From the IMG/VR virus record IMGVR_UViG_3300049847_000092, positions 1-38,150 of that record: a stretch of 38,150 nucleotides of DNA; one strand, given 5' to 3'. The position numbers were made by a program, and so were the translations under genes. Below the pieces are notes generated by a model that saw nothing but the letters and a program-made list of their open reading frames with translations, did no database searches and was not told the origin of the DNA. The stretch comes from a virus. This document shows positions 1,227-7,831 of the stretch, piece after piece; within the stretch, counting starts at the first letter, position 1, and every line of letters begins with the position of its first letter.

Positions 1227-1945
1227 TGATAAAAATAGAAATTAAAAATAGATGGACTGGCTCAATTATATTTGAATACAGTAAAGAAAATAACACGGTT
1301 AAAGACACGTTAATAGAAGCGGTAAAAAATGGTGCTTACTTGCGTGGTGCTTACTTGCGTGATGCTGACTTGGGTGGTGCTGACTTGGGTGGTGCTTACT
1401 TGGGTGGTGCTGACTTGGGTGGTGCTTACTTGCATTGTGCTGACTTGGGTGGTGCTTACTTGGGTGGTGCTTACTTGGGTGGTGCTTACTTGCATGGTGC
1501 TGACTTGGGTGGTGCTTACTTGCATTGTGCTGACTTGGGTGGTGCTTACTTGCATGGTGCTGACTTGGGTGGTGCTGACTTGGATGGTGCTGACTTGCGT
1601 GGTGCTGACTTGCGTGATGCTGACTTGGGTGGTGCTGACTTGGGTGGTGCTTACTTGGGTGGTGCTGACTTGGGTGGTGCTTACTTGCATGGTGCTGACT
1701 TGGGTGATATTAAAATCAAAAAAGCACAAGTATTTACAGGGCTTTATAAGTATATTTGTATGCCGATAATTTCAGATGACGATAAACTTTATATTAAATT
1801 AGGCTGTTATACACGTTTACTTTCTGAATGGGAATCTTACTTTTGGAATAATCCTAAAGAATTTCCTAACGATGGAAATATAGAATCTCAATATAGAGTA
1901 ATGGCATTTGAAACGTGTAAAAAGTGGTTAGAATTAAATAAGTAA
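1226..1945 (+). CDS. Pentapeptide-repeat protein
   Basis: A 239-residue protein with three parts. Residues 1-35 form a leader starting MIKIEIKNRWTG. Residues 36-160 are 25 uninterrupted pentapeptides of the form (G/D/C)-A-(D/Y)-L-(G/R/H/D). Residues 161-239 are an aromatic-rich C-terminal domain. Pentapeptide repeats fold as a right-handed quadrilateral beta-helix with A and L facing inward; known members such as MfpA and Qnr mimic DNA and bind gyrase. Here every A and L is invariant and all variation is at exposed positions. Whether this protein mimics DNA is not shown; the many Asp at exposed positions would fit, but half the repeats carry Tyr there. Confidence 0.9.
   Translation: MIKIEIKNRWTGSIIFEYSKENNTVKDTLIEAVKNGAYLRGAYLRDADLGGADLGGAYLGGADLGGAYLHCADLGGAYLGGAYLGGAYLHGADLGGAYLHCADLGGAYLHGADLGGADLDGADLRGADLRDADLGGADLGGAYLGGADLGGAYLHGADLGDIKIKKAQVFTGLYKYICMPIISDDDKLYIKLGCYTRLLSEWESYFWNNPKEFPNDGNIESQYRVMAFETCKKWLELNK
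1331..1705 (+). repeat. 25 x 15-bp tandem repeat (pentapeptide array)
   Basis: Twenty-five copies of a 15-bp unit, GGTGCTGACTTGGGT in its commonest form. Differences occur only at first or second codon bases: GAC/TAC, GGT/CGT/CAT/GAT and GGT/GAT/TGT. All 125 third codon positions are fixed. Units 3-7 and 20-24 are the same five-unit, 75-bp block, showing duplication or gene conversion above the single-unit level. The repeat has no stop in several frames, which creates spurious open frames on both strands. Confidence 0.95.
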
Positions 1946-3191: not shown

Positions 3192-3818
3192 ATGGTTAAA
3201 CCTATCCAATACAAGCCAAAGCCTAAGAAATGTAAAATGTGTGGGACTCAGTTTAATCCATACACGCCTTTACAAATGGTATGCAGCCCTAATTGTGCAT
3301 TAGAATATAACTCAGAACGTGAGGTTAAGAAAAGGGTTAGTAAAATGAAAAACGACTTAGAAGATTCTAATTTTTTAAGAAACAAAGCACAAAATGAGTT
3401 TAACGAACTAATTAGAATGATTGACAGTTCAATGCCTTGCATAAGTTGTGGTAATCGTAAATATGGACATGGTGAGGCTGGACACTATCACTCAAGGGGT
3501 AAAAATCCAACTATATTCATTCATGCTCACAATATACATTTACAGGATAATCATTGTAATCAGCATTTATCAGCTAATATAATTGGTTATGATAATGGAT
3601 TAATTAATAGATACGGTAAACAATATTGGGAATATGTTAAATTTGAATTACCTAAAATAGAACCATTGCACTTAACAAGAGAAGACTATAAGGCTATTAT
3701 GGTAAAAATAAGAACTTTTAAACGTTACTTACAAACACTAAATTTGGAAGGATTAACGAACTCGCAAAGATTAGAATTAAGAAATTTGTTAAACGAAAGA
3801 TTAGGAATTTATAAATAA
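3192..3818 (+). CDS. ninG: NinG/Rap-like recombination protein
   Basis: 208 residues. A first zinc site is formed by Cys14-x2-Cys17 and Cys31-x3-Cys35; a second lies at Cys83-x2-Cys86 followed by GHGEAGHYHSRG with several His. Coiled-coil charged helices separate the two, and a segment typical of the family (IHAHNIHLQDNHCNQHLS) follows. Lambda NinG (Rap) is a Holliday-junction-targeting recombinase. Length matches the family (about 200). It is adjacent to other recombination or replication genes. Confidence 0.8.
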   Translation: MVKPIQYKPKPKKCKMCGTQFNPYTPLQMVCSPNCALEYNSEREVKKRVSKMKNDLEDSNFLRNKAQNEFNELIRMIDSSMPCISCGNRKYGHGEAGHYHSRGKNPTIFIHAHNIHLQDNHCNQHLSANIIGYDNGLINRYGKQYWEYVKFELPKIEPLHLTREDYKAIMVKIRTFKRYLQTLNLEGLTNSQRLELRNLLNERLGIYK

Positions 3819-4696: not shown

Positions 4697-4798
4697 ATGA
4701 AAAACTTTGAAAATATCCCGAACGAAATTAGCCCTGTGTGTTCTACATTTGTGGGTCGCCTAGTTTTTAGTAGGGTATTTTTTTATGGCACAAAATAA
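4697..4798 (+). other. Possible leader peptide in the replication-operon 5' UTR
   Basis: A 33-codon reading frame with ATG at 4697 ends with TAA 4796-4798, overlapping the start of the next gene in another frame. It begins about 9 nt after the predicted transcript start and is enclosed by the GCGACC/GGTCGC pair. It could be a translated leader that couples to the next gene, or chance. I see no protein signature in it. Confidence 0.2.
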
Positions 4799-5393
4799 AA
4801 AATCAGTACTACTTTACTGCGACATTATTCACACTATTGAACAGCTTGACGATTCAGATGCCGGACTGCTTTTTAAGCATTATTTAAGGTACATAAACGA
4901 CCAGAATCCAGAGCCTCCAAGCAAATTAATTCAAATTGTTTTCGAGCCAATTAGACAAAATCTTAAAAGGGATTTAAAGAAGTGGGAAGATAAGTCATTG
5001 AAAAACAAGGATAATGCCAATAAGCGATGGAATGCGAACGCATCCGAACGCATAAAACATGATGCGAATTATGCCGATAAAGATAAAGTAACAGTTAAAG
5101 TAAAAGATAAAGTAACAGTTAAAGTAAAAGATAAAGTAAAGTATAGGGATTTAGTAAACCTCACACTTTCTGAATTTGACAAGTTAGTTAGTGAATATGG
5201 TGAACAACCAACTAACTGGATGTTGGATAAACTAAACGCCTACAAACTAAGCAAGGGTAAAACCTACAAAAGCGACTACGGGGCTATCTTAACTTGGGTA
5301 GTTAAAAGCTACGAAGAACATAAAAAAACGCAAACTAAAGAAGAAACCAACCCATTAATAAACGCAATTAACAAAATGTATAAACAATCATAA
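4785..5393 (+). CDS. DUF6291-type replisome-organiser candidate
   Basis: 202 residues. The N-terminal 90 residues (KKSVLLYCDIIHTIEQLDD..., AGLLFKHYLRYIND, EPIRQNLKRDLKKWED) match the DUF6291 pattern found in Bacteroidetes phage replication genes. A low-complexity linker follows (about 85-120, including a doubled DKVTVKVK). The C-terminal region (LTLSEFDKLVSEYGEQPTNW) resembles DnaD-type helicase-loader tails. Such proteins are thought to open the origin and recruit host replication proteins. The linker DNA carries direct and inverted repeats, the same arrangement as the lambda O origin. Confidence 0.65.
   Translation: MAQNKKSVLLYCDIIHTIEQLDDSDAGLLFKHYLRYINDQNPEPPSKLIQIVFEPIRQNLKRDLKKWEDKSLKNKDNANKRWNANASERIKHDANYADKDKVTVKVKDKVTVKVKDKVKYRDLVNLTLSEFDKLVSEYGEQPTNWMLDKLNAYKLSKGKTYKSDYGAILTWVVKSYEEHKKTQTKEETNPLINAINKMYKQS
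5032..5139 (+). repeat. Iteron-like repeats inside the replication gene (candidate origin)
   Basis: Two repeat types sit side by side. ATGCGAAC/GAACGCAT and their inverse recur between 5032 and 5069, including the palindrome-like ATGCGAACGCAT. Then a 24-bp unit beginning GATAAAGTAACAG is present at 5082-5105 and 5106-5129, with a third partial copy at 5130-5139. The region is AT-rich and encodes a flexible linker, which tolerates such repeats. Origin function is inferred from the analogy to phages with iterons inside the initiator gene. Confidence 0.4.
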
Positions 5394-5405
5394 AAACCAA
5401 AACAA

Positions 5406-5648
5406 ATGACTGAACAACTAAAAAAAGAATCAGCAATACTAATGGCTTTATTTAAAGCTACGGTAGAGCAGAGCAAGTATTTAACTGGAGAGTTAAAACA
5501 GCGACCTAAACAAGTATTTAACGATTGGTATCGTAAAGGATGGATGTTATTAGATGAATTGGAAAAATCAAAAACAGTTGATAATGAGTACTTAGAGAGA
5601 GTTACTGATATTTATCACAATATTAACTTAGAAATACGTAGGTCATAA
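5406..5648 (+). CDS. Small helical protein, unknown
   Basis: 80 residues, all-helical appearance (TEQLKKESAILMALFKATVEQ; EYLERVTDIYHNINLEIRRS). It starts behind a CCAAAACAAATG leader, and its last base is shared with the ATG of the helicase-methyltransferase gene (TAATG), so the two are translationally coupled. It might be a partner of that enzyme; nothing in the sequence proves this. Confidence 0.6.
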   Translation: MTEQLKKESAILMALFKATVEQSKYLTGELKQRPKQVFNDWYRKGWMLLDELEKSKTVDNEYLERVTDIYHNINLEIRRS

Positions 5649-7831
5649 TGGAATATTTAAAGTTTTTAGAAACAAAGCGTAAAACATTTTTAGAGTCTGG
5701 ATTTGAAATAGATGAATCAGAACTAAATACTAACCTTTTTGACTTTCAAAAGTTTACGGTTAAAACAGCATTATCAAAGGGTAGGTTTGCAATTTTTGCA
5801 GATTGTGGACTTGGTAAAACACTTATGCAGTTAAGTTGGGCGGAGGCTGTTTGGAAACATACTAATATGCCTGTATTGATTTTAGCACCATTGGCAGTAG
5901 TAGAACAAACTAAATCAGAGGCATTAAAGTTTGGAATTAATACGGATAGTTTTGATATTACCAATTATGACCAATTAAAAAACATAGAAAACATTAACCA
6001 ATATTCAGGAGTTGTTTTAGATGAATCAAGTATTTTAAAAGGAAGGGATGGTAAACTAAGCAGTTTAATAATTTCAACATTTAAAAACACTCCTTATAAG
6101 TTAGCTTGTACTGCAACGCCCTCACCAAATGACCATATGGAGTTAGGGCAGCATTCAGAGTTTTTAGGGGCTATGAGTTATTTAGAAATGTTGGCTATGT
6201 ACTTTGTTCACGATGGAGGTGAAACGTCTAAATGGAGGCTTAGAAAGCACGCTAAAGACCCTTTCTGGAAGTATGTATGTAGTTGGTCTATTGCTATTGA
6301 TAAGCCAGATACATTAGGCTTTAATCATCAAGGTTATGATTTACCGGAAATAGAATACATAGAACATATTATAACAACTGAAAACAATACAGAAAACCTA
6401 TTCGGGGATGTTGCTGTTAGTGCTACAGATTTACATAAAGATTTAAACCGTTCATTTGATAAGCGTTTAGAAAAAGCAATAGAGTTAGTAAATTCAAATG
6501 ATGAACAATGGATTGTTTGGGGGCTTAAAAATAATGAAACCGATGAAATAGCCAAAAGATTAAAAGACGCTGTAAATGTTCAGGGGTCTGATAGTCCAGA
6601 GTACAAAGCTAAATACTTAAATGGTTTTGCTAAGTCTGAATTTAAAACACTTGTAACTAAAACAAGTATAGCTAGTTTTGGTATGAACTACCAACAATGC
6701 CACCAAATGGTATTTATGAGCTACGACTTTAAATTCGAGGCATTTTATCAGGCAGTAAGAAGGTGCTATCGTTTTGGTCAAAAGAACAAAGTAACTGTTC
6801 ATATTCTTATACCTGAAAGTCAAACAAATGTACGCCAAACCATTTTAGATAAACAGCAACGTCATAAGGAAATGATACAGGAAATGGCAAAATATTCAAG
6901 TGAATCAAATTATAAATCAAATAAATCAAAAATAATGATTACAAAGAAAGAAATTAAAACAGATAGCTACCATTTAATTAATGGAGATTGTGTTCAGGAA
7001 ACCAAAAGACTACCAGATAATTGTGCGGATATTATTGTATTTAGCCCTCCATTTGCAGAGTTATACGTTTATTCTGATAAAGAGGAGGATATGGGTAATG
7101 TTCAGAATTACAAACAATTTGAACAACATTTTAAATATCTTATACCTGAGTTAAAAAGAACATTAAAGAAAGGGCGTATTTGTGCCATTCATTGTATGGA
7201 CCTACCAATTCAGAAGGGTAAAGAGGGGTATATTGGGTTAAGAGATTTTAGCGGAATGTTAATTGATTGGTTTCAGGAATGCGGATTTATTTACCATTCA
7301 AGGGTTACAATTTGGAAGAATCCAGTAACAGAAATGCAACGTACTAAGGCATTAGGATTACTACATAAAACAATTAAAAAGGATAGCTCTATGACAAGAG
7401 TAGGTATTCCTGACTATATTTTATTCTTTAGAAACGAAGGGGAGAATGAAGTACCAATTACTCATCAGGATAAAGACCAAAGTAGATTAGATTATTTACC
7501 TGTTGATTTATGGCAGCAATACGCTAGCCCAGTTTGGATGGATATTGATTATAGCCGGACTTTACAATATCGCTCTGGTCGGGATGGTAATGATGAAAAA
7601 CATATTTGCCCTTTGCAGTTGGATACTATTGAAAGAGTATTACATTTGTACTCTAATGAAGGCGAAACTGTTTTAAGTCCATTTGGAGGAATCGGTTCTG
7701 AGGGATGTTCGGCTTTAAAGATGAACCGTAAAAGCATTAGTATTGAATTAAAAGAATCTTATTTTAAAATAAACGCAAGTAACCATAAGGCATTTGCAGA
7801 AGAAAAGAATAGTATTTTAACTTTATTTTAA
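5648..7831 (+). CDS. SNF2-type helicase fused to DNA methyltransferase
   Basis: 727 residues with two enzymes in one chain. The helicase half has Walker A DCGLGKT (about 52-58), motif II DESS (125-128), motif III CTATPSP (154-160) and the SNF2-type motif VI QAVRRCYRFGQ (about 368-378). The methyltransferase half begins with YHLINGDCVQE, then the catalytic FSPPF (about 465-469), a target-recognition region, and the AdoMet-binding SPFGGIG plus IELKESYF near 677-700. Catalytic motif before AdoMet motif means the beta-type order. SPPF is usual in N4-cytosine enzymes but also occurs in N6-adenine ones, so the methylated base is uncertain. No restriction nuclease is adjacent, so it probably protects phage DNA or couples unwinding to modification. 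Confidence 0.88.
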   Translation: MEYLKFLETKRKTFLESGFEIDESELNTNLFDFQKFTVKTALSKGRFAIFADCGLGKTLMQLSWAEAVWKHTNMPVLILAPLAVVEQTKSEALKFGINTDSFDITNYDQLKNIENINQYSGVVLDESSILKGRDGKLSSLIISTFKNTPYKLACTATPSPNDHMELGQHSEFLGAMSYLEMLAMYFVHDGGETSKWRLRKHAKDPFWKYVCSWSIAIDKPDTLGFNHQGYDLPEIEYIEHIITTENNTENLFGDVAVSATDLHKDLNRSFDKRLEKAIELVNSNDEQWIVWGLKNNETDEIAKRLKDAVNVQGSDSPEYKAKYLNGFAKSEFKTLVTKTSIASFGMNYQQCHQMVFMSYDFKFEAFYQAVRRCYRFGQKNKVTVHILIPESQTNVRQTILDKQQRHKEMIQEMAKYSSESNYKSNKSKIMITKKEIKTDSYHLINGDCVQETKRLPDNCADIIVFSPPFAELYVYSDKEEDMGNVQNYKQFEQHFKYLIPELKRTLKKGRICAIHCMDLPIQKGKEGYIGLRDFSGMLIDWFQECGFIYHSRVTIWKNPVTEMQRTKALGLLHKTIKKDSSMTRVGIPDYILFFRNEGENEVPITHQDKDQSRLDYLPVDLWQQYASPVWMDIDYSRTLQYRSGRDGNDEKHICPLQLDTIERVLHLYSNEGETVLSPFGGIGSEGCSALKMNRKSISIELKESYFKINASNHKAFAEEKNSILTLF

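Follow-up and report, generated by a model that had tools for sequence, protein, structure and literature searches.

The window, by which we mean the whole 38,150-base virus record analysed here, carries on its plus strand an open reading frame (ORF; positions 1226–1945, ATG start, stop included) that codes for a pentapeptide-repeat protein of 239 residues. The protein matches Pfam family PF00805 (E = 1.2e-46; 156 bits versus a cut-off of 20.2) and contains 25 contiguous units, where the family is defined by at least eight of the form A(D/N)LXX. Three parts can be distinguished on this strand. An N-terminal cap (MIKIEIKNRWTGSIIFEYSKENNTVKDTLIEAVKN; 1226–1330) is assigned from an alignment of relatives and an AlphaFold model, which places strands at residues 2–8 and 14–20 and a helix at residues 25–34. 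It is followed by the 25-unit array (1331–1705), whose main unit is GGT GCT KAC TTG SRT, and by a C-terminal domain (1706–1942; VFTGLYKY...GC..R...W...FWNN..EFPND...) of strands and helices that is common to pentapeptide and hexapeptide relatives. This last domain matches no Pfam or NCBIfam family of its own.

The AlphaFold model of the whole protein (mean pLDDT 88.5) consists of a hairpin and helix, a rod with one short strand per unit, and C-terminal strands and helices. The structures closest to it are synthetic consensus pentapeptide solenoids, led by 4yfo (VIA Z 24.3), and natural pentapeptide proteins; 2j8k scores Z 22.0. On this model, the gene product is predicted to form a right-handed quadrilateral (square) β-helix rod, capped at the N-terminus and followed by the C-terminal domain. 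Like HetL, Np275 and the synthetic beta1 solenoid (PF00805), it has A(D/N)LXX units and a right-handed square helix, which is predicted here. Unlike these proteins, it has an extra C-terminal domain that belongs to no named family, and units of its type are near-identical in DNA, use codons private to a lineage and turn over quickly among relatives.

The host of the window phage is a Flavobacterium-like bacterium. Shortly after the array gene lie a Gp157-type gene (2353–2838) and a NinG-type gene (3192–3818), and the array gene of Listeria phage A500 adjoins SSB and is near a Holliday-junction resolvase. Such proximity to recombination genes is no more than suggestive and is not seen in other relatives. 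An ORF beside the array gene of one relative (L107) looks NinG-like by eye. PADLOC gives no match. Further along the window, a 727-residue ORF (5648–7831) appears by eye to fuse a helicase-like part to a DNA methyltransferase-like part carrying an SPPF motif.

The array comprises 25 in-frame 15-bp units of eight distinct sequences, and Tandem Repeats Finder reports a period of 15 with 25.1 copies. The original prediction described an array in which every third base is fixed, Ala and Leu never change, and exposed residues vary with Asp and Tyr at 14 to 11. Our counts agree on each point: there are no third-base variants across the 25 units, the Ala and Leu codons are constant at every base, and the 14:11 ratio is exact. 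Variation is confined to columns 1 (G/T), 2 (G/A), 7 (G/T), 13 (G/C) and 14 (G/A) of the unit, a pattern that is not adenine-specific and led us to reject variation of the diversity-generating retroelement (DGR) type. Units 3–7 are indeed identical to units 20–24, and the duplicated block proves larger than was proposed. Units 1–8 (1331–1450) recur 17 units downstream as units 18–25 (1586–1705; lag-17 z = 4.7) with three nucleotide differences in 120, all of them replacements. A repeated run of at least five units arises in 0.8% of shuffles of the window units. The array is little diverged (mean of 1.7 differences per unit pair), and the absence of silent changes among its five variable sites has a probability of 0.16 if all replacements are tolerated, or 0.07 if Ala and Leu are barred from change. 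Selection is therefore not proven by this array alone, and a comparison of silent and replacement rates required relatives.

Relatives were sought by the C-terminal domain rather than by the array. A first set (L003–L010) was followed by some 40 further loci that were found with a FWNN..EFPN DNA pattern and then confirmed by profile search. Searches with the window protein and its end domains against 50,697 phage records (tblastn), and a scan of genome contigs with the query A1, gave no match. The C-terminal domain follows pentapeptide, Phe-centred (L130) and hexapeptide (L091, L099, L104, L112, L125 and L126) arrays, and at one locus (L008, 2866–3234) both end domains flank only about 1.5 units. 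These arrangements indicate that the array is an exchangeable module of variable length, set between ends that are conserved. Several hexapeptide members match the Pfam Hexapep and LbH models, on which the assignment of their helix type rests, because the model of a hexapeptide relative (pLDDT 74.5) has no significant match in the PDB. In the six hexapeptide loci, the type of solenoid itself looks as if it had been swapped beside a window-type C-terminal domain. Contigs from Sulfurimonas metagenome-assembled genomes (L131, L135 and L138) hold seven or more paralogous pentapeptide genes of older appearance that include this domain, several of them in tandem.

Homogenisation has made silent sites nearly uniform inside an array, while they differ from one array to another, which is concerted evolution. 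Silent departures from the consensus of an array are confined to 2 of 448 Ala codons and 12 of 453 Leu codons, yet every one of the four Ala and six Leu codons is the fixed choice in some array. At silent sites, the units of one gene thus resemble each other more than they resemble those of orthologues, as in the HNWD and PRDM9 repeat systems. In the window, the fixed codons GAC (26%) and TTG (12%) are minority choices in the phage's own genome, so that codon choice resembles a founder effect rather than optimality. The original prediction would have been undermined by the same order of units in distant relatives; the order found in the window is common to no relative of different codon background.

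The comparison of rates was made on 29 little-diverged phage pentapeptide arrays, mostly from short-read metagenome assemblies. Of 119 variant alleles counted within arrays, only 9 are silent and 110 are replacements; the expected silent share is 30% if all replacements are allowed (P = 2e-9) and 40% if changes of Ala, Leu and Phe are barred (P = 6e-16). The deficit holds under transition/transversion weights of 0.5 to 4 (P = 3e-6 to 2e-11) and at every divergence cut-off tried, and 23 of the 29 arrays have no silent variant at all, where 8.8 are expected. These allele counts presume that few variants are common by descent among related arrays, which is covered in part by drawing a single array at random from each Ala/Leu codon class (median P = 3e-4, 95th percentile 0.005); if the worst array is chosen in each class, the deficit drops to P = 0.02. 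Hence the replacement-versus-silent test that the original prediction called for, not significant in the window alone, reveals an excess of replacements at exposed positions in the pooled set, as is characteristic of HNWD and PRDM9 arrays. Variants present in at least two units show 4 silent to 88 replacement changes (P = 6e-10), whereas singletons are near neutral (5 to 22; P = 0.13). This contrast points to a roughly neutral origin of mutations, with replacements as the ones that spread. Homogenisation alone cannot create such a bias, because under neutrality the silent or replacement label of a variant depends on the site of mutation and not on its history of duplication. In the older Listeria and cellular arrays, the silent fraction is near expectation and allele counts are saturated; cellular arrays were discarded as a control for this reason.

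Near-identical phages differ in both the number and the content of their units. Loci L097 and L127 (G005 and G006; whole records L144 and L145) are identical over 2296 nt upstream of the array and differ by one change in 2615 nt downstream, but the arrays comprise 7 units in one and 10 in the other and differ by replacement changes only, including Asp to Gly. Each also has private unit types, which assembly collapse could not generate. Loci L109 and L112 (G003 and G004; whole records L142 and L143) differ by one substitution in 4341 nt, which is a Tyr/Asn replacement within the array; their unit numbers also differ, and misassembly could explain that difference. The cultured Listeria phages A500 and WIL-3 have identical coding flanks (0 of 72 nt at the N-terminal side and 0 of 237 nt at the C-terminal side) and arrays of 8 and 22 units. 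In these relatives, unit number thus varies between near-identical alleles.

The explanation we favour, with somewhat better than even confidence, is that the array is a coding minisatellite kept homogeneous through unequal recombination, in which selection keeps exposed residues mixed on a rod that, by analogy, would bind a variable partner. Among relatives, units come and go and are reshuffled rapidly, and inside each array silent differences have been levelled out, as unequal crossing-over, slippage or conversion would do. The allele statistics point to selection that keeps or spreads replacements at three outward-facing positions, namely the Asp, Asn or Tyr before Leu and the two residues after it. 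By analogy with other shuffled repeats, the rod would bind a variable partner, probably in phage–host conflict, and shuffling would alter the fit.

The same data could also come from an inert, length-variable rod or spacer whose residue mixture is kept for folding or solubility, for example to avoid stacked Asp ladders, such that selection acts on composition rather than recognition and there is no arms race. We regard this as unlikely, though it deserves serious weight. Across 453 units, the residue before Leu is almost always Asp, Asn or Tyr, nearly every array has a mixture at this position, the order of units appears random relative to the helix faces, and the locus with both end domains and about 1.5 units suggests that length is freely variable. 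However, a purely structural need poorly explains why the +1 and +2 positions vary without silent change, and does not easily explain residue sets private to a lineage (Cys, Trp, Ile, Phe and His). An array that is entirely Asn and Gly (L110) demonstrates that the mixture is not obligatory. Variation before Leu is restricted, since His, which is one transition from Tyr, is absent from this position in all 453 units. Recent expansion from one unit with a few chance replacements and no selection would suit the window, with its young array and non-significant silent deficit. It is made improbable by the pooled deficit, which persists with one array per codon class, and by the stronger replacement bias of shared variants than of singletons. 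Fixation of silent sites by codon optimality or an overlapping gene is scarcely credible. The other reading frames are open across the window array, but simply because the repeat lacks stops, and their amino acids change too, on which grounds an overlapping gene was rejected; codon optimality was rejected given the minority codons of the window and the use of every Ala and Leu codon, private to lineages, among relatives.

A rather unlikely alternative is that the number and order of units in the window record are products of assembly; collapse, the second refuter named by the original prediction, keeps some probability for the window itself. The 375 bp of near-identical repeats are longer than short reads, some related contigs start or stop within arrays (L005, L141, which is G002, and L142, which is G003), and in marine viral data long reads yielded pentapeptide proteins at 26 times the frequency of assemblies (PMC9238414). 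Assembly errors, however, give no preference for replacement over silent variants, and the unit types that distinguish L097 from L127 could not be generated by collapse. The truncated contigs do imply that public viral catalogues are likely to cut short or collapse arrays, a warning that short-read catalogues misreport genes of this type. We consider it very improbable that the protein is a DNA mimic of the Qnr/MfpA type whose array is tuned to inhibit gyrase or a restriction enzyme. The gyrase-protecting proteins Qnr, MfpA and AlbG belong to the same fold class (PMC8145042), Foldseek and VIA match the predicted model to QnrB1 and MfpA, and the array of the window is itself acidic, at about -0.5 per unit. 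Across the family, however, net charge runs from acidic to basic (-0.9 to +0.24 per unit), so that no acidic DNA-like surface is conserved, and the window protein scores 16–45 bits against NCBIfam Qnr and MfpA models with cut-offs of 240–500 (44.6 versus 360 for MfpA; 26.6 versus 240 for Qnr). A search for helix-face register and lag-4 periodicity among the variable residues found neither; no defined binding face is visible in the order of residues. Varying charge and residues that ignore the four faces both speak against a conserved DNA-mimic ridge. Thus, the original prediction of an expanded, homogenised and shuffled array with probably selected surface residues is borne out among relatives by silent homogenisation, replacement excess and unit turnover, and its proposal of a tuned DNA-mimic surface is not supported.

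The preferred reading, a homogenised coding minisatellite under surface selection, has parallels in two eukaryotic systems. The HNWD WD40 arrays of Podospora (HET-D/E) have concerted repeats, diversifying surface codons and unit numbers that vary between alleles (PMC1805685), features that recur in the phage arrays, where unit number varies among relatives; they are NLR-type proteins with the partner het-c, whereas the phage protein has another fold and its partner is proposed by analogy. The PRDM9 zinc-finger array is likewise a coding minisatellite with mostly non-synonymous variation, located at contact residues, and copy-number polymorphism (PMC3890296), but it belongs to a vertebrate DNA-binding protein with known contact residues. 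More tentatively, phages may combine a common C-terminal domain with interchangeable, self-diversifying pentapeptide or hexapeptide β-solenoids, in which shuffling and selection would generate a recognition repertoire against host defences; this would be a viral counterpart of HNWD that operates without a reverse-transcriptase diversifier.

To our knowledge, pentapeptide proteins are frequent in phages and have no known function there. Should the arrays prove to be surfaces that are selected and shuffle fast, these proteins would join a short list of repeat systems that diversify a protein without a dedicated mutator, and they would point to a host target. Among openly accessible papers, we found none that joins pentapeptide repeats with concerted evolution in phages. 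In the text of a review of pentapeptide proteins covered by a term search, phages are not mentioned (PMC8145042).

Cultured Listeria isolates make the array hypothesis directly testable. Their proteins (A500 YP_001468439.1 and AG20 AG2_014) resemble that of the window in having a cap, an array, a C-terminal domain with a GC motif, and unit turnover. Their arrays are more diverged and, unlike the 29 pooled arrays, have a silent fraction near expectation. Comparison of the Listeria and window C-terminal domains by hhalign gives no significant homology (E 0.088, probability 0.6%); because these domains differ, the Listeria proteins demonstrate the same behaviour rather than proven common descent. 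Another Listeria phage, LMTA-34 (L151), carries two pentapeptide genes, one of them divergent, with one small gene between them. The window phage itself has a second coding repeat, a perfect 24-nt tandem repeat of 2.5 copies (5079–5140) that lies in the ORF at 4785–5393 and codes for KDKVTVKV.
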